Shown: positions 43,488 to 51,719 of the stretch, piece after piece
Position numbering within the stretch: position 1 is the first letter of the stretch
Layout of the letters: each line of letters starts with the position of its first letter
DNA from: Spirochaetia bacterium
Lineage (GTDB): Bacteria; Spirochaetota; Spirochaetia; Treponematales; Rectinemataceae
Length of the DNA: 64,000 nucleotides
Assembly (NCBI GenBank): GCA_029975555.1
Contig: JARKOY010000109.1
Location: 124,001 to 188,000 of the forward strand
Reading direction: 5' to 3'
Notes under the pieces: generated by a model
Databases searched by the model: none
The model's input: the letters and a program-made list of their open reading frames with translations, nothing else
What the model was told of the DNA's origin: nothing
Made by a program: the position numbers and the translations under genes

Positions 43488-43536
43488 ATTGAGCGATATA
43501 TTTTTTAAGTGCTGACACGTATACCAAGGAGTGGAC

Positions 43537-44190
43537 ATGGTAGATTTCATCGTCAAAGGAGGACTAGTCCTCTGGGTCATCATGGCGCTCTCGGTGGTGG
43601 CGCTTGCGATCATCATCGAGCGTCTGTTGTATTTCCGCCGCATTTCGATCGATGAGGAAAAGCTTTTCCTCCGCATCAAGACGAGTCTGATGGAGGGTCA
43701 TTACTCCGAGGCCATGGCGATCTGCGACCAGAATGTGTCGCCATTTTCGACCTTGCTCAAAGTGGGCATCGAGAATAGAAATCAGCCCGAATACATGCAG
43801 AGGGAGCTCCTCAAGGACGCCGCGTCGCTGGAGGCGGTGAGCCTCGAGCGAGGGCTTACGGCCCTCGGTACGATTTCCAATGTTTCGACCTTGCTCGGTC
43901 TTCTTGGAACCGTCACCGGCACCATGAAGGCCTTCGGCGTGCTCGGCAAGTTCGGGGCAGTGAGCGATCCTGCCGCGCTGGCAAGCGGTGTATCGGAGGC
44001 GCTCATCACCACCGTCGGTGGCCTCGTCGTGGCAATTCCGATTATACTTGTCTACAATTACTTTTCCTCGAAGGTGAACCTCATTCTCACCCGTCTCGAA
44101 ACGCAGGTGAACAGTCTCGTGAACCTCATTTCCAGCTACAGCGGCAAAGAGAGCGGCAAAGATGAGGACAAGCCCTCGAAGGAGGCATGA
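43537..44190 (+). CDS. exbB: MotA/TolQ/ExbB proton-channel protein
   Basis: 217 residues from ATG 43537 (AAGGAG upstream). Three membrane segments: residues 9-28 (LVLWVIMALSVVALAIIIERL), about 112-134 and about 152-176 (ISNVSTLLGLLGTVTGTMKAF; ALITTVGGLVVAIPIILVYNYF). GLLGTVTGTM is the conserved channel helix. With ExbD it turns the proton gradient into motion of TonB. Four-base overlap with exbD. Confidence 0.92.
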   Translation: MVDFIVKGGLVLWVIMALSVVALAIIIERLLYFRRISIDEEKLFLRIKTSLMEGHYSEAMAICDQNVSPFSTLLKVGIENRNQPEYMQRELLKDAASLEAVSLERGLTALGTISNVSTLLGLLGTVTGTMKAFGVLGKFGAVSDPAALASGVSEALITTVGGLVVAIPIILVYNYFSSKVNLILTRLETQVNSLVNLISSYSGKESGKDEDKPSKEA

Positions 44191-44606
44191 TGGTCGGCAA
44201 TCGGAAGATTTCCCCGAAGATAAGTTTCGATCTGACGCCGCTGATCGATATTATTCTTCAGCTCGTGATCTTCTTCATGATCACCACGACATTCAAGACT
44301 TCGCCTGGCATCGTACTGCAGCTGCCTGCCTCCCAGACGGCACAATCCGTCGCCACGCCCGAACTGAGGGTGGTCGTCGTGTCACAGAACGAGATATACG
44401 TCGATAAGACTAAGACGGACCTTGCAGGCCTCGAGCCGATTTTGCGCAAGCGCGTGAGCGGTTCCGACGCCAAGCAGATTCGCGCGGTGCTCGAAGGGCA
44501 GGCCGGTGCCGAATATCAGCTGATCATCTCCGTACTCGACGCGTTGCGGCTGAACGGCATCGAGAATGTCGGCCTCATTACCCGGAAAAACAAGGTGGTG
44601 CAATGA
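44187..44606 (+). CDS. exbD: ExbD/TolR-family protein
   Basis: 139 residues. One membrane helix near residues 17-37 (LTPLIDIILQLVIFFMITTTF); its Asp in PLIDIILQLV is the conserved proton-binding residue. The periplasmic domain follows (LRVVVVSQNEIYVDKTKTDLAGLEPIL). Overlaps exbB and tonB by four bases each, so the three are translated as one unit. Confidence 0.92.
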   Translation: MMVGNRKISPKISFDLTPLIDIILQLVIFFMITTTFKTSPGIVLQLPASQTAQSVATPELRVVVVSQNEIYVDKTKTDLAGLEPILRKRVSGSDAKQIRAVLEGQAGAEYQLIISVLDALRLNGIENVGLITRKNKVVQ

Positions 44607-45655
44607 GGGGATCCCTCACCTACGCCGAGCGCGAACAGCGGAAAAGGACCATGCTCGCCTATGTCCTTGCGCTCGGAATATACGGCATGCTTTTCGGTGC
44701 CGCCTTTCTCTTCGACCTCTTTAAACCCCAGAACCTGGATTTCAGCAACAAGACCCTGATCGTCAACATTCAAGGGCCGGTTGCCAACGATGTGGGCAGA
44801 GGTTCTCCGGTGGAAATGAAGGCGCCTGAAGTGGCCGCAGAGAAACCTGCTCCCCCGCCTCAGCCCGCGCCCAAACAGAAGGCGCAGACAGCAGCGAAGT
44901 CGGCTTCTCCAGGACCATCCGTCGCGCCTTCCACGCAACCCGCCCCGTCTTCTGTGCCGGTGCCAGAACAGGCGGCGCCCACCGCGCTGCCCTCTACCTC
45001 TGCGCCACAGGAGCCCGCCGCTCCATGGACCCCTGGCGAACGGGGACCTGGGTCCCGCGTGAGCTCGAGCGAATCCTCGGTCTTGTCCCCGGGGGAAGGG
45101 CAAGTGCCCTGGGGCACGGGCGAGGCCGTGCGCATCACGAAGGCCGAGAAGGGGAACACCGTGGAAACGACGCTCGGCGGCTCCTCCGAAACGGTCGGAC
45201 AGGGCCTCTATGTGCCGATCTACTTGAGCATGCCTCTGCCGTCCGTTGTCTCCGCAGAACTCTTCAACGCCATCCCCGATGAGGTGATTCCGCCGAACAC
45301 TTTGGTGTCCTCTGCCGAATCGCGCAAACGGGCTTTTCTCAACTATTATACCAAAAGCGGCAACGCGTACCGCCTCTCGAATCCCGTTCCTCTCGAAGTG
45401 CGGGAAAAACTCTGGGAGATGCTCGAAGACGCAGGTTACAAGGTGGAACAGGCAGACTACAAGGCCGGCCGCACGCTGAATCCCGTCGTGATAGGGTTCT
45501 CGGTCACCAAGGACCGACAGCTGCGAGGCGTCGAACTGCTGCAGTCCTCCGGAGATCCCGACATCGACGCGGCCGTGCTCTACGGCTTTAAGCGGGCATC
45601 CTTCTGGAACAAGACCGGAGAGACTATTCAAGGGCGCTTTGTGTATCGCTTCTGA
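44603..45655 (+). CDS. tonB: TonB-like energy transducer
   Basis: 350 residues. A cytoplasmic N-terminus (ERE-QRKR) and a membrane helix (about 18-38) are followed by a Pro/Ala/Ser-rich periplasm-spanning linker (about 75-170). The C-terminal domain (about 245-350: NPVVIGFSVTKDRQLRGVELLQSSGDPDIDAAVLYGFKRASFW) shows the TonB pattern of a strand, then SSG-x-LD-type motif, then helix. It carries energy from ExbBD to outer-membrane receptors. No TonB-dependent receptor gene lies in the window. Confidence 0.85.
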   Translation: MRGSLTYAEREQRKRTMLAYVLALGIYGMLFGAAFLFDLFKPQNLDFSNKTLIVNIQGPVANDVGRGSPVEMKAPEVAAEKPAPPPQPAPKQKAQTAAKSASPGPSVAPSTQPAPSSVPVPEQAAPTALPSTSAPQEPAAPWTPGERGPGSRVSSSESSVLSPGEGQVPWGTGEAVRITKAEKGNTVETTLGGSSETVGQGLYVPIYLSMPLPSVVSAELFNAIPDEVIPPNTLVSSAESRKRAFLNYYTKSGNAYRLSNPVPLEVREKLWEMLEDAGYKVEQADYKAGRTLNPVVIGFSVTKDRQLRGVELLQSSGDPDIDAAVLYGFKRASFWNKTGETIQGRFVYRF

Positions 45656-45692: not shown

Positions 45693-46799
45693 CTACGATT
45701 TGTCTTTTTTCTTGTCGGCCTCTTCTTGAAGCTTTTTAAAGTATGTCGTATCCAGTCCAGCCGCAAAGAATACATCGACTACATCGGGCGCGAACTGCGT
45801 GCCGCGCATCCTGTGGATTTCCTGGACAACTTCGCCGAAGCTGAGCGCAGTGCGGTAGGCGCGCGAGGTGGCCATCGCATCGAAGGTGTCCGCGAGCGCG
45901 ATGATCCTCGCAAGGTGGTCGATGTGTTCTCCCTCGACTCGGTCGGGGTAGCCCTTGCCGTCCCAGCGCTCGTGGTGGTGGCGGACCGCGGCCGCCGCCC
46001 TTTTGAAGAATTCTACGGTTGAAAGAATTTGTGCGCCGATGATGGGGTGCATGCGGATGATGTGGCGTTCTTTCTCGTCGAGAGGCCCTTCCTTGTTGAG
46101 GATGCTGTCGGGGATACCGATTTTCCCAATGTCGTGGAGGAGGGCAGCGTACTCCAGCTGTTCGATCTCCTCGTCGGGAAGGCGCATGGTTTTCCCGATG
46201 AGGGAGCTCAGCCAGCGGACGCGTTCGCAGTGGCCTTGGGTATAGCGGTCTTTGGCCTCGATGGTTTCGGCAAGGGCGTAGGCGGTCTGCAAGTTTATTT
46301 TCTTCAGTTTTTTATACACATCGCCAAGTTCCTGGTAGCTCGATTCCACCTGTTTTTCGAGCTCGAGGCGGCGCTGTGCCATTTTCCGTTCTTCTTCTGC
46401 CTTCATCTCCATGATGTCGCGGTAGGAGAAGGCTTTTTCAAGGGCCTCTCGTATCTTCTCGAGAGAACTCGGCTTGACCAGGTAATCGAAGGCTCCGGCT
46501 TTCATGGCTGCAAGGCCGGTCTCGAGATCGCCAAAGGCAGTGAGCATTATGACAGGCACGGTGGGAAGAAGCGCCCGTATCTTGGGCAGCGCCGCCAGCC
46601 CCGACATGATCGGCATGCGAATGTCGAGCAAGATAGCGTCGGGAGCGACGTCGCCGCTCTCGAGCAGGTCGAGCGCCTCACGGCCATTTTTTGCGATCGC
46701 ACACTTGTGGTCCATCTTCTGCATGCTTAAGGAGAGCACTTTTTGCATCGACACATCATCTTCGACCACAAGCACAGTTCGTTTTCGATCAGTATCCAT
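45693..46799 (-). CDS. Response regulator with HD-GYP phosphodiesterase domain
   Basis: 368 residues. REC domain 1-125 with acidic pair E13-D14, phospho-acceptor D59 (LLDIRMPIMSG) and Lys in FDYLVKPSSLEKI. A coiled linker (about 135-175) leads to the HD-GYP domain: LEYAALLHDIGKIGIPDSILNKEG, IIRMHPIIGAQIL, VRHHHERWDGKGYPDRVEGEHI. HD and GYP motifs are intact, so it should hydrolyse cyclic di-GMP when phosphorylated. It follows the methyltransferase gene by 20 bases and lies next to a divergent sensor kinase, a plausible cognate partner. Confidence 0.93.
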   Translation of the reverse strand: MDTDRKRTVLVVEDDVSMQKVLSLSMQKMDHKCAIAKNGREALDLLESGDVAPDAILLDIRMPIMSGLAALPKIRALLPTVPVIMLTAFGDLETGLAAMKAGAFDYLVKPSSLEKIREALEKAFSYRDIMEMKAEEERKMAQRRLELEKQVESSYQELGDVYKKLKKINLQTAYALAETIEAKDRYTQGHCERVRWLSSLIGKTMRLPDEEIEQLEYAALLHDIGKIGIPDSILNKEGPLDEKERHIIRMHPIIGAQILSTVEFFKRAAAAVRHHHERWDGKGYPDRVEGEHIDHLARIIALADTFDAMATSRAYRTALSFGEVVQEIHRMRGTQFAPDVVDVFFAAGLDTTYFKKLQEEADKKKDKS

Positions 46800-46819
46800 T
46801 CAATTTCCAGCCACACCGG

Positions 46820-47371
46820 TCATCGGCGCTGTTTCTTGAAGCGTGGCACAAGAAAAGGCACCTTCTTTGCATATTCGCGGTAGTCCACAAACTGCGTGGG
46901 AAAAGTATACTGATCTTGTAATAAAATGAGAAGTAGATTCATGGCATTCGCAGTCGAAAAACCGATCAAAACAAGAGAATTGTTGGACCAGAGGCCAAAT
47001 CCCACCGAGAAGAGCAAGAAACACCAGAATCCCGGATGCCTGCACCGACCGTAACTCCCGTGCGCATAGACGTGGCCGGCCGCCACTTTATATCTTTTTA
47101 CGCCGAGCGGAATTTCCAAAAATACAGTCCACACCAACATCCCTCCGCCTGCGATGGCCAGCCCAAGGCAGACCATGCGCACAGCTTCCGGCACCTGCAT
47201 GGTCTGTTCGCCTCCGACAAGTGCACACAGCATCCCCAGGGCAATGAGCGCGTACCCAAAAACCTGGAGGGCCACGGATGCTGGTCTTTTGGTGCTCGCG
47301 GACCACAACTCCGCGAGCACGAGGAGTATAAAACCGAAGAAAATAGAGATAATGGATACCATTCTACGCAC
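46820..47371 (-). CDS. Isoprenylcysteine methyltransferase (ICMT)-like membrane methyltransferase
   Basis: 183 residues, four to five membrane helices. The C-terminal catalytic region is recognisable: AGHVYAHGSYGRCRHPGFWCFLLFSVGFGLW with the RHP motif that binds S-adenosylmethionine, then DQYTFPTQFVDYREYAKKVPFLVPRF, the usual ICMT/PEMT ending. Bacterial members methylate lipids or small carboxylic acids; the substrate here is unknown. Co-transcribed with the HD-GYP regulator downstream, and divergent from the sensor-kinase-acyltransferase gene across only 59 bases. Confidence 0.85.
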   Translation of the reverse strand: MRRMVSIISIFFGFILLVLAELWSASTKRPASVALQVFGYALIALGMLCALVGGEQTMQVPEAVRMVCLGLAIAGGGMLVWTVFLEIPLGVKRYKVAAGHVYAHGSYGRCRHPGFWCFLLFSVGFGLWSNNSLVLIGFSTANAMNLLLILLQDQYTFPTQFVDYREYAKKVPFLVPRFKKQRR

Positions 47372-47430
47372 TACTATGCTATAGTATTCACTAATTTTCT
47401 ATACATCGCGTATTGGACGGGAGCACCTCG

Positions 47431-50400
47431 ATGATATTGGATGTTTCGTCGCTCATTCCTGCGTTGTCGTTTTGCATCTATATACCCTTTATCATTTTTG
47501 GTCTGGCCAACAAAAAGGAACGCGTCAACCTCTCCTTTCTCCAATATATGGGGCTCATGGCGCTTTGGAGCTTCGGCTCCTTCATGATGCACGCCAACAC
47601 GGGTCTTTTTACCCCGCTCGTATGGAACAGAGTTATGCTCGTGGGTCTGCTCAGTAGCCCGATTACGGTTTTTGCGACGCTCATCCATTTTGCCAGAACA
47701 GAGAAGAACCGATACAGGTATTTTCTGTATCTAGGATATGGAATCGACGTTCTGCTTCTCTATCTGAACCTCTCCGGTTCAATCGTCACGTATGCAGGCT
47801 TCGAAGGGAACGAATTCCGTTATACGCTTGGTCCAGGCTCGCTCATCGCGTATTCGCTCTCGTACTTTTATCTCTTTCTCGCCATAATCTTTGTGCTGCG
47901 TGAGCTGCGGAACAGTAAGGACAAATTTTTGAAACGGTCCCTGCGGCTCGTCGTCGCGGGGGTCGTCGTCATGCTGCTAGGGATCGCCAGCAACCTCTAT
48001 GCCCCGCTCGGCCGGTATCCTATCGATCTGTTTGCCGCCACGATAAATGCGGTGATCGTCTTCTTCAGTGTCTATAAATATAGGCTCGTTCACTATTCGG
48101 CCATCGTGCTCAATGTCTTTCTTACGATCCTGGTCGCCTTCGCTTCTGGCATCATCTACATGTTCTTCTTCATACCGGTCTTTGGGCTCGACCGGGTGAT
48201 ACCCTTCTCCGAGCTGATTCTGTTGGCGCTCTCTCTGGGAATCGTGTCGTCGCTCTTCCTGTCGCCGCTGCGCACCGCCACACAGGCCTTGCTCGAAAGA
48301 ATATATGGTGGAAAAAGTTTTTTGTATTATCAAGAATTGCGTAAATTTTCCGCCGACCTCACTTCCATCGTAAGCCTTGAAGATCTTGCAAAACTGACGG
48401 TCGACAATGTCCACTCGACATTTAAGCTTGACTGGGCTTTTGTGCTGATAAACGACTACAATGCAAGGAACTTCCGAATCGTGGCCTCTAAAGGGCTCGC
48501 CTTCGCGGAGGGTGCGGAACCGGAATCGAAAGACTATGTCATTGTCCCGAGGACAGATCAGTTCATTCAATCGTACCAAATGCGCACCATTCAGCATGCT
48601 CCTCAGCAGAGCATCTCGATCAGACTCACCAAGGGCGATGCGCATGAGACGGTGTCCGCAAGCCTCGTGCTCCCTTTGAAATTCAAGGAGAGACTGAATG
48701 GATTCATCGTGTTGGGCCCACGGATCGAGAAGGATTATTACAATCAGTACGACCTAGAAATACTGCAGTTCCTCACGGACCAGGCCTCCGTTGCCGTGGA
48801 GAACGCGATCAGTTTCGAACGCCTGCGCCAGCAGCAGAAGCGTCTTCAGGAGACGAACGAGGAGCTTACGCTGAGCAGAAACAAGCTCGAAGCTTTTTTC
48901 GACGGCATCGCCACGCCGATTTCGATTCAGGACATCAATTACAACATTGTCACGGCGAACTACGCGGCGCAGCGATATTTCGAAAAATCGCAGGAGGAGC
49001 TGATCGGCTCGAAGTGTTATAAGGTGTATTTCAACCGCGACCGTCCCTGTGCCGAGTGTCTTGCCCAAGACTGCCTCCACACGAAGCTGCCCTTCAGCTC
49101 AGAGAAGCAGGACGACCGCACGCAGCTCACCTTCGCGCTCAATTTTTATTCGATCCCCACGCCGCAGGGCTCTATGGGTTCCTTCATAGAGTTCTTCCAG
49201 GACATCACGAAGCAGAAGAGCCTGCAGGAAGAGCTCATTCAGTCGGAGAAATTGGCGGGGATCGGGACGCTGGTGTCGGGAATAGCCCACGAAATCAACA
49301 ACCCGCTCGGGGGAATCCTCGGCACCGCCGACCTCATGCTGCCCGAAACGGCGGAAGGCAGTCCCTTGCGCGAATACACGCAGGACATCATCCGCTATGC
49401 CCAGAGCGCGGCGGACGTCATCAAGGACCTCATGGTCTATTCGAGGAAGACCAGGACCAGCGTGGAGATGCTCAACATCGTCACCATCCTTGAGAATTCT
49501 CTGAAGATGGCCATGCGCGGCATCGATTTCGGGACGATTGTGGTGAGGAAATCCTATGATGCTGTTCCCGAAGTTCTTGCGAATCCGACCGAACTTCAGC
49601 AGGTGTTTCTGAATCTCATCGTGAATGCCGTCCAGGCCATGAACAGCGATGGCATCCTGACGCTCTCCTGCAGGCAGGAAGACGAAGACGTCGCCGTGAC
49701 GGTCCAGGACACCGGCAGGGGAATCGAGAAAGAGAATCTCGACAAGGTGTTCAATCCATTCTTCACCACAAAAGAGGCCGGCGCCGGCACAGGCCTTGGC
49801 TTGAGCATTGCCCATCATATCGTCACCAAATATGGTGGGCGCATCCTGCTCGACAGTGAGGAAGGGAGGGGGACGACGTTTACCGTCATCCTCCCCGCCG
49901 CCAACGAGGATAGGGACAGGGTCCGCCTCGTGCACGCCAAGGAACTCCGCCAATTCGAAGACAGTTTTTATCTGCAGCGCAAAGTGCTGGTGGGAGAAAA
50001 GGGCTATCAGGAGGAGACGATCCGCCGCAAGTCCGATGAACTCGCTTTCCACATCTTGGCGTATAAAGGCCTGCAGCCGATCGGGACGGTATCCTTGCAC
50101 TTGAGCGAGGAAGAAACGCATGTGCCGATCGAAGAGAATTTCGACATTTCACGGTATCTCGACGGAAGCCTCTATGCCGAGATCGACAGGCTCGCCGTCT
50201 CGAAGGAGGAGCGCGGCAGCCTGATTCCCTTCAGCATCATGGCGCTCGCCTATCTCTATGCGCGCGGACGCGGGGCCAAGAAGATATTCCTCGACGTATT
50301 TGCCGACGAGACGAAGCTCATCAAGATGTACGAAAAGCTCGGTTTCGAGATCATCGGCAGCTACAGCAAGCCATTGCCGTGCACAGTCATGATGATGGAC

Positions 50401-50589
50401 CATGTGTCCAAATACGAGCAGGAAGTGTCGCGCATGGAACACTTTGTAAAGCCGTTCTTTTCGAGGCTTATCCCCAAGATCGATTTTTCGGGCGAAGACC
50501 TGCACTATGTGATGAGGGCCATCAATGAGATAAAGGCGAAATTCCCCAAGGAATGCGCGGAGCAGGAGTCGCTGGGCGAGACGATGTGA
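47431..50589 (+). CDS. Sensor histidine kinase fused to a C-terminal GNAT (FeeM-like) acyltransferase domain
   Basis: 1052 residues from ATG at 47431 (GGGAGC upstream; an in-frame TTG lies six codons earlier). Residues 1-285 hold seven to eight membrane helices of the 7TM sensor type. A GAF domain spans about 300-460. A PAS domain spans about 480-595 and contains a Cys cluster ([24 protein letters not shown]). The kinase core follows: H620 in [13 protein letters not shown]-box [10 protein letters not shown], and G boxes DTGRGI and [13 protein letters not shown]. After about 825 comes a GNAT-fold domain ([53 protein letters not shown]). It resembles N-acyl amino acid synthases. A ~60-residue tail ends the protein. 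No linker to a receiver domain is seen. Confidence 0.88.
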
Positions 50590-50618
50590 TCCAAGGGCCC
50601 TGACCTTGGTGCCCGGCA

Positions 50619-50647
50619 TGGACAGCGCAAAGACATCGGCATACAAT
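50619..50647 (+). promoter_or_regulatory. Promoter of the lipid kinase gene
   Basis: TGGACA (5/6) at 50619-50624, 17-base spacer, TACAAT (5/6) at 50642-50647. The start at about 50654 leaves only four bases before ATG 50658, so the message is nearly leaderless. Confidence 0.6.
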
Positions 50648-50657
50648 TACTCTTCGT

Positions 50658-51719
50658 ATGAAACCAGATGACTTGGTCGAAGGGCTCAACGCGATACTCG
50701 CCCACTCGCCCGTGTTCCACGATAAGTCGCTCATCGTCGATGTGATCGCGAATCCCAAGGCCGGCGGATTTAGTCGTATCCACCACTCTAAAAAACGTTT
50801 CAATGAGCTCAAGGAAATAGTCAAACGCGCCGTCAGCCTGCCGAAGCGCGCCTCTCCGTTCAGCCTGAAGCTGCACCTCACCGAGCGCTGTGGTCACGCC
50901 GCCGCCATTGTCCAGCGCATTCTCGACCATTCTCCCTCGAACGGCAAAGATTCATACCACCTCATCATGACGGCGGGGGGCGACGGCACGAGTCTGGAGA
51001 CTGCAGAGCGGCTCAGCAAGCTCCCTGAATCCGAGAAGGACCGCTTCGGGATCGTGCGGCTACCCTTCGGCACAGGCAACGATGGCTCCGAAGGCAGAAC
51101 CCTGATCGTCGCACTGGAAAGATTGCTTGGCCCCGCGAGGTTCGAGCGCAGGCCGGCGCTGTGCGTGACCCCAAATGAAGAGGGCGGGGCACTGCCGCGC
51201 TATTCGTTCAATATTGCGAGCATCGGCCTCGATGCCTATGTCGCCGATATGACGAATCGGCTCAAGCGCGCCTTTCCAGGAGATTCCTACAAGTTTTGGG
51301 TCAACGTCGGCACGCTCTTTTACGACCGCCTCTACAATGTCGTCGAAATGGGACTCAAGGCCTGGGACAAAGAAAAACTGCTGTTCGATTCGAAATGCCC
51401 GCGCCTCTTGGTCGCCATGGGAGCCTCGGGCAACCGGCAGTACGGCTCAAACAAGAAGATTCTTCCGACCGAGGACAACTGCGTGGCGGTGGCGCAGACG
51501 AGTCTGTTCAGAAAACTCGTGCTGAAAGGCCCCATCGAACATGGGCGCCACGAGAATATCCCTGAGCTGGTGCATTTTACTGCCGACAAGCTTTTGATCG
51601 AATACAGCGAGCGCGTTCCTCTGCAGTGCGACGGGGAAACGGAGATACTCGCCAAGTGCGATTTTCCGCTCACCATAGAGCGGATTTACGACGCGTACAA
51701 TGTGCTGGTGCCTGCCTGA
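50658..51719 (+). CDS. Diacylglycerol-kinase-family lipid kinase
   Basis: 353 residues. The catalytic domain has VDVIANPKAGGFSR at the start, the nucleotide loop LIMTAGGDGTSLE (near 108-120) and RFGIVRLPFGTGNDGSEG (near 134-151). It ends with a beta-sandwich, where VPLQCDGETEI matches the usual DGE element. Family members phosphorylate diacylglycerol, sphingoid bases or similar lipids. About 50 residues longer than YegS-type proteins at the N-terminus. It directly follows the kinase-acyltransferase gene but has its own promoter. Confidence 0.88.
   Translation: MKPDDLVEGLNAILAHSPVFHDKSLIVDVIANPKAGGFSRIHHSKKRFNELKEIVKRAVSLPKRASPFSLKLHLTERCGHAAAIVQRILDHSPSNGKDSYHLIMTAGGDGTSLETAERLSKLPESEKDRFGIVRLPFGTGNDGSEGRTLIVALERLLGPARFERRPALCVTPNEEGGALPRYSFNIASIGLDAYVADMTNRLKRAFPGDSYKFWVNVGTLFYDRLYNVVEMGLKAWDKEKLLFDSKCPRLLVAMGASGNRQYGSNKKILPTEDNCVAVAQTSLFRKLVLKGPIEHGRHENIPELVHFTADKLLIEYSERVPLQCDGETEILAKCDFPLTIERIYDAYNVLVPA

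Follow-up and report, generated by a model that had tools for sequence, protein, structure and literature searches.

In Xanthomonas, the histidine kinase RpfC is paired with RpfG and acts as the sensor of a fatty acid signal (PMC5391125, PMC3609779), and DSF has been found to bind RpfC directly and to activate it (PMC5391125). In Methanosaeta harundinacea, the histidine kinase FilI was reported to make carboxyl-acyl homoserine lactones (PMC3991700). In Ralstonia, the signal sensed by the histidine kinase PhcS is a fatty acyl methyl ester produced by the methyltransferase PhcB (PMC8578825). FeeM is a free-standing acyl-ACP enzyme that makes N-acyl amino acids (PMC9654057). The N-acyl alanine methyl esters of Roseovarius, N-acylated and carboxyl-methylated amino acids reported to have no role in AHL signalling, provide a chemical precedent for an N-acyl methyl ester, and the source names no methyltransferase for them (PMC11580390).

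The present study concerns a histidine kinase gene within a 64,000-nucleotide stretch of DNA (the window) from a spirochaete with an assembly of 3.27 Mb. Of the named species among the orthologues, Rectinema subterraneum (Spirochaetota, Treponematales) is its nearest relative. The four genes of the preliminary description were found at the positions given there, and their open reading frames and the 59-bp divergent gap were confirmed (Table 1). The HD-GYP gene starts 20 bases past the ICMT-like gene. An ordinary-looking ExbB-ExbD-TonB-like operon (window 43531-45655, +) adjoins the HD-GYP gene across much of the Rectinema family.

Table 1. Features of the kinase locus in the window and of the G004 kinase.
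Feature	Position	Strand	Remarks
Histidine kinase with C-terminal FeeM-type acyltransferase domain	47431..50589	+	1052 aa from ATG 47431
FeeM-type C-terminal domain, residues 831-1052	49921..50586	+	Pfam FeeM PF21926, AlphaFold model
ICMT-fold five-helix membrane protein, probable SAM methyltransferase	46820..47371	-	183 aa, GTG start; motif and fold
REC-HD-GYP response regulator	45693..46799	-	368 aa; Response_reg and HD_5 (Pfam)
Divergent intergenic region, kinase versus ICMT-like gene	47372..47430	.	59 bp
DAGK/YegS-type lipid kinase, lineage-specific neighbour, not core	50658..51719	+	DAGK_cat 35.7 bits
G004 kinase fusion with eroded F-box and G2 box	L149:7666-10791	-	Fast-evolving genome

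Pfam analysis of the kinase identified HisKA_7TM (residues 14-220), GAF (316-456), PAS (PAS_4, 485-596), HisKA (613-674) and HATPase_c (718-824) domains followed by FeeM (867-977), all above the gathering score, which bears out the domain order and the C-terminal acyltransferase domain read earlier from the protein. The assigned start codon agrees with the aligned orthologue starts, and hydropathy suggests that the stretch from the 7TM region to the GAF domain contains additional membrane segments. The H-box, N-box, G1 and G2 motifs are present in the window kinase ([32 protein letters not shown]) and are decayed in L149 only. A link of the kinase to PrsK and exosortases was rejected, since the N-terminal region searched alone gave no PrsK match.

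The kinase-acyltransferase fusion is old and real. It was found in eight other members of the genus (one copy interrupted by a contig end), in further genera of the family and, at 57% identity, in another family of the order, and a scan of species genomes found further Spirochaetales that carry it at 52-54% identity. A profile of the C-terminal domain detected the fusion in families f13, f20 and f38, always as an open frame of approximately 1035-1060 residues, and the f13 proteins are 41% identical to the window kinase across the whole length. Because more than 20 genomes show this one single frame, spanning Rectinema and four or more further families of spirochaetes, the fusion is not a chance or assembly join, and an annotation or assembly artefact was rejected as its source. 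Among 296 genomes sampled from the phylum with the domain profile, every strong match (E < 1e-60) was fused, the remaining matches were weak and covered part of the domain, and neither a split version nor a strong free-standing copy was found. Confinement to this one contig, or division into two genes in relatives, had been named beforehand as grounds for abandoning the idea; neither was observed.

Outside the spirochaetes, the only full-strength match was L048 (9807-12359, +), labelled Solidesulfovibrio, in which an unrelated N-terminal frame is joined near the H-box to a near-copy of the spirochaete sequence L041; it was rejected as a case of wider spread and appears to be a chimeric contig. 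A match on an Alloyangia plasmid (H3), running past its kinase, was also rejected, as the annotated kinase gene stops before the extra stretch, and the plasmids and phages searched for the C-terminal domain gave weak GNAT matches only. For phyla sampled around four genomes from outside the spirochaetes, no match at E <= 1e-9 was obtained in 297, 247, 249 and 247 genomes; two of the samples share most listed genomes and none contains a positive control, so that absence from other phyla is suggestive only. The profile used did detect the domain in the spirochaete sample.

Concerning the identity of the C-terminal domain, FeeM (PF21926) scored 39.2 bits for the full protein and 42.8 bits for the domain against a cut-off of 27, and it matched 15 of 15 orthologous domains. 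Acetyltransf_1 was also above threshold (37-41 bits against 20.7), its scores falling little short of those for FeeM, and both matches lie within residues 865-977; for LuxI (PF00765, Autoind_synth), Pfam listed no match to the window protein at E <= 1. The top structural match of the AlphaFold model (mean pLDDT 83.3) was FeeM (2g0b; Z 17.6, 2.5 A over 164 residues), with which the small acetyl-CoA GNATs SACOL1063 (5jph, Z 17.0) and YjcF (1q2y, Z 16.6) tie, and owing to this tie the structure by itself does not tell FeeM-type enzymes apart from those using acetyl-CoA. Other GNATs and AHL synthases followed (Z 14.6-15.0, the AHL synthases over 160-188 residues), and judging from the model the AHL synthases resemble the domain in fold only. 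In a PDB sequence search with the domain, the nearest solved sequences were SACOL1063 and YjcF, and FeeM itself was missing from the matches.

The sequence of the acyl-donor loop is more discriminating. The acetyl-CoA pyrophosphate loop RxxGxG/A is absent in every orthologue examined, with no GxG, and the position is occupied by R-G-S-L/I-I/V-P or variants such as RGSLIPF, RRGIIPL and RNSLVSL, whereas the closest GNATs keep R-x-x-G-x-G after strand 4 (HRGQGMG in SACOL1063, HRSAGVG in YjcF). Free spirochaete FeeM relatives have R-x-S at the loop, likewise without GxG. Its absence from every orthologue examined favours a FeeM/LuxI-like acyl donor over acetyl-CoA. The earlier FeeM-type assignment is supported by the Pfam matches and has FeeM as the top structural match, though GNATs tie with it.

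The domain signature consists of QRK(V/I)LVGEKGYxE (849-861), E917xxR920, R928, D955, F957, K969 and GF 971-972. Residues invariant down to 41% identity include D844, QRK 849-851, LVGEKGY 853-859, E861, D869, H874, P883, GT 885-886, E917, R920, R928, D955, F957, D959, K969 and GF 971-972. Mean pairwise identity was 69.6% for the acyltransferase domain core, compared with 65.7% for HATPase and 49.8% for GAF, and the membrane part of the kinase is far less conserved than this core. That the core is as conserved as the kinase was counted in favour of the explanation proposed below.

Other FeeM-family proteins were observed in spirochaetes. In L151 (4-1992, -) and L155 (4-1992, -), FeeM, cNMP_binding and SAM methyltransferase domains lie on one chain, with a divergent neighbour resembling a class III adenylate cyclase in L151 and a phosphatase-type regulator in L155. 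These proteins share with the kinase fusion a FeeM domain joined to a signalling module, a methylation link and the phylum, but they have a cyclic-nucleotide domain, a soluble methyltransferase, an adenylate-cyclase-like neighbour and no kinase. FeeM-family acyltransferases of another spirochaete family (L154:1453-2307, +; L157:1450-2283, +; L159:1345-2919, +) adjoin receiver-domain and kinase-like genes, and L159 also has a weak V4R match.

Neighbours of the kinase were counted in 25 loci with enough upstream sequence. The REC-HD-GYP gene is divergent to the kinase in 23 of the 25, and the ICMT-like gene is placed between the two in 21. Since the remaining neighbours differ beyond the Rectinema family, this adjacency is not mere background synteny, and the expected conservation of both neighbours, whose failure would have spoken against the preliminary description, was borne out. 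In 16 orthologues of the HD-GYP regulator, D59, T87, K109, H222, D223, H275, H276, E277, G281, G283, Y284 and P285 are invariant, and the regulator has the phospho-acceptor Asp, the HD pair and the HHExxDGxGYP motif of RpfG-like proteins. The genome has nine GGDEF matches, which indicates that c-di-GMP can be made; together with the invariant catalytic and receiver residues, this makes the suggested c-di-GMP output plausible and indeed likely. In L036 (6325-7341, -), the HD-GYP frame seems out of register near the C-terminus (338 aa, unrelated tail), which appears to be a frameshift or sequencing error.

The ICMT-like protein is conserved in an alignment of 20 orthologues, with RHPG 111-114, D153, F157, F161, Y167 and PFL 172-174 invariant, and it has the ICMT-type RHP motif and C-terminal Y..Y...VP..P region. 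Its model (pLDDT 90.1) gave Ma-ICMT (4a2n) as the best Foldseek match (E 0.039), and a second aligner gave Z 10.7 for 4a2n (3.4 A, 143 residues) and 11.5 for delta14-sterol reductase, a related fold. The window protein is below every curated family cut-off searched (NF040696, 16.4 bits versus 160), the ICMT Pfam match is weak and found in 11 of the 20 members (best E 9e-4), and the LmtA lipid A methyltransferase is also weakly matched by members. The methyltransferase identity proposed earlier is based on motif and fold, not on family scores; it is the likeliest reading, and methylation of carboxyl groups by this protein is a guess.

At three loci in families f20 and f38, the kinase and HD-GYP genes are present with an intact acyltransferase and no ICMT gene between them; in the kinase tree, these loci group together (support 86/84). 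Since f13, the most divergent lineage, has all three genes, this tree, rooted at its midpoint only, suggests that the ICMT-like gene was present early and then lost. As this clade keeps the kinase and HD-GYP protein without it, methylation would be optional, and an indispensable role of the ICMT-like enzyme is not supported; its absence beside an intact acyltransferase was counted against our explanation. The lipid kinase lies downstream in nine of the 25 loci, all in the Rectinema family, and on this ground its earlier inclusion in the system was withdrawn.

Two genomes that have lost partners provide ready natural comparisons. G005 (L032) has lost HD-GYP and kept ICMT with intact kinase motifs, and this retention after HD-GYP loss was counted against our explanation. 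G004 (L149) has lost both HD-GYP and ICMT, no HD-GYP orthologue was found elsewhere in this genome (the best matches being other HD-GYP proteins), and the kinase frame is intact at 1069 aa. Here the kinase motifs have decayed along with the loss of the partners: the F-box FNPFFTTK has become VNDFLTVE, the G2 box GAGTGLGLS has become SSVSGMGLS, and Ser replaces the first Asn of the N-box. Divergence of HisKA is exceptional in this kinase: the dN is 0.279 for HisKA versus 0.088 for PAS, compared with 0.111 versus 0.150 between the window and L040, and the G004 kinase branch is 0.65 versus 0.03-0.08 for relatives. The G004 protein retains the acyltransferase signature ([14 protein letters not shown]), with P933 changed to Ser and Y967 to Phe. 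These sequences may be read as loss of the phosphorelay after partner loss, with weaker decay of the acyltransferase, in one fast-evolving MAG; part of the effect reflects the fast genome, because the flanking genes are also more diverged (purB 73% versus 86-89% in other relatives). HD-GYP as the cognate output fits the disappearance of the ATP-binding motifs together with HD-GYP and ICMT while the acyltransferase signature is largely kept.

Based on this evidence, we propose a two-component system with a second enzyme in its sensor, comprising an HD-GYP output, a FeeM-type acyltransferase in cis and optional methylation, to which we assign a probability of roughly 0.4. The 7TM(+2)-GAF-PAS kinase would phosphorylate the divergently encoded REC-HD-GYP protein, a step that we regard as highly probable, and the phosphorylated regulator would lower c-di-GMP. 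The C-terminal domain would be an N-acyltransferase of the FeeM/LuxI branch that takes a fatty acyl group, most likely from acyl-ACP and not from acetyl-CoA, and transfers it, at the inner face of the membrane, to an amino acid or a comparable amine; for FeeM-type acyltransfer by this domain, we judge the odds slightly better than even. Where present, the ICMT-fold protein would probably methylate this product, or a related lipophilic one, at its carboxyl group. The occurrence of FeeM and SAM methyltransferase domains on one chain elsewhere in the phylum was counted in favour of this proposal, and the small-GNAT structural tie, the closer GNAT sequences and the missing PF00765 match were counted against the proposal. 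It is doubtful that the kinase reads the acyl product of its own domain as a signal. A kinase that carries its own synthase, with an N-acyl messenger (optionally methyl-esterified), 7TM sensing and c-di-GMP breakdown, is plausible, unproven and rather unlikely.

Alternatively, the domain might be noncatalytic and bind acyl-ACP or acyl-CoA as a lipid-status sensor that reports fatty acid supply, with c-di-GMP following lipid metabolism. Its position directly after the ATPase domain would lend itself to allosteric control, no unfused form of it accompanies the orthologues, and in G004 Tyr967 and Pro933 are replaced with the N-terminal signature kept. However, the catalysis-type residues E917, R920, R928, D955 and, outside G004, Y967 show little or no variation even in homologues at 41% identity, and such conservation of charged and polar residues exceeds the usual need of pure binding. 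We consider this explanation improbable. We hold it equally improbable that the domain supplies the membrane with an N-acyl amino acid or aminolipid, with the ICMT-like protein modifying a lipid, the kinase only tuning synthesis and no signal involved; FeeM-type enzymes do yield N-acyl amino acids (PMC9654057), and the lipid kinase on the Rectinema side and the weak LmtA matches agree with this, but the fusion often occurs without the lipid kinase (present in 9 of 25 loci), and the neighbour found most regularly is a c-di-GMP phosphodiesterase.

An ordinary GNAT acetyltransferase, acting on a protein such as the regulator or on a small amine, would account for the near-equal Acetyltransf_1 score and for SACOL1063 and YjcF being the closest solved sequences and tying in structure. 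Against this, the RxxGxG loop retained by those GNATs is gone in every orthologue examined, and we regard it as the least probable of the alternatives.

To our knowledge, no acyl-signal system is known in Spirochaetota, and a self-made signal, if true, would mean cell-density or lipid-supply signalling in the phylum. If active, the domain would place synthesis and perception of a lipid-derived cue on one chain with a connection to c-di-GMP; in the role of a lipid-status sensor, it would still link c-di-GMP to the supply of fatty acids in environmental spirochaetes. In the open literature, with most subscription journals outside the search, no description was found of a histidine kinase that carries a recognisable N-acyltransferase domain within the same polypeptide.

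Compared with described systems, the locus resembles RpfC/RpfG/RpfF of Xanthomonas in having a membrane histidine kinase and a REC-HD-GYP regulator and, possibly, in a lipid-derived signal from a linked synthase. RpfF is a separate crotonase-fold enzyme, whereas the candidate synthase here is FeeM-type and fused, and the kinase is without a receiver domain. The C-terminal domain falls in the Pfam family of FeeM and has FeeM as its top structural match, tied with small GNATs, but FeeM is free-standing, and the Ser of the E-I-S-R motif in some spirochaete FeeM relatives is Asp in the kinase-fused domain. PhcB/PhcS similarly combine a methyltransferase-made acyl signal with a sensing histidine kinase, as the ICMT-like gene and kinase might, but they have no acyltransferase fusion and their output is PhcA, not HD-GYP. 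FilI/FilR likewise involve a kinase reported as the maker of an acyl signal with cognate regulators; however, FilI is CHASE4-HAMP-PAS-GAF-HisKA-HATPase by Pfam with neither FeeM nor LuxI among the domains listed, it works with one REC-ArsR-like and one REC-only regulator, and its products barely affected the kinase. None of the RpfC/RpfG, FilI and PhcB precedents has the anatomy of this locus.
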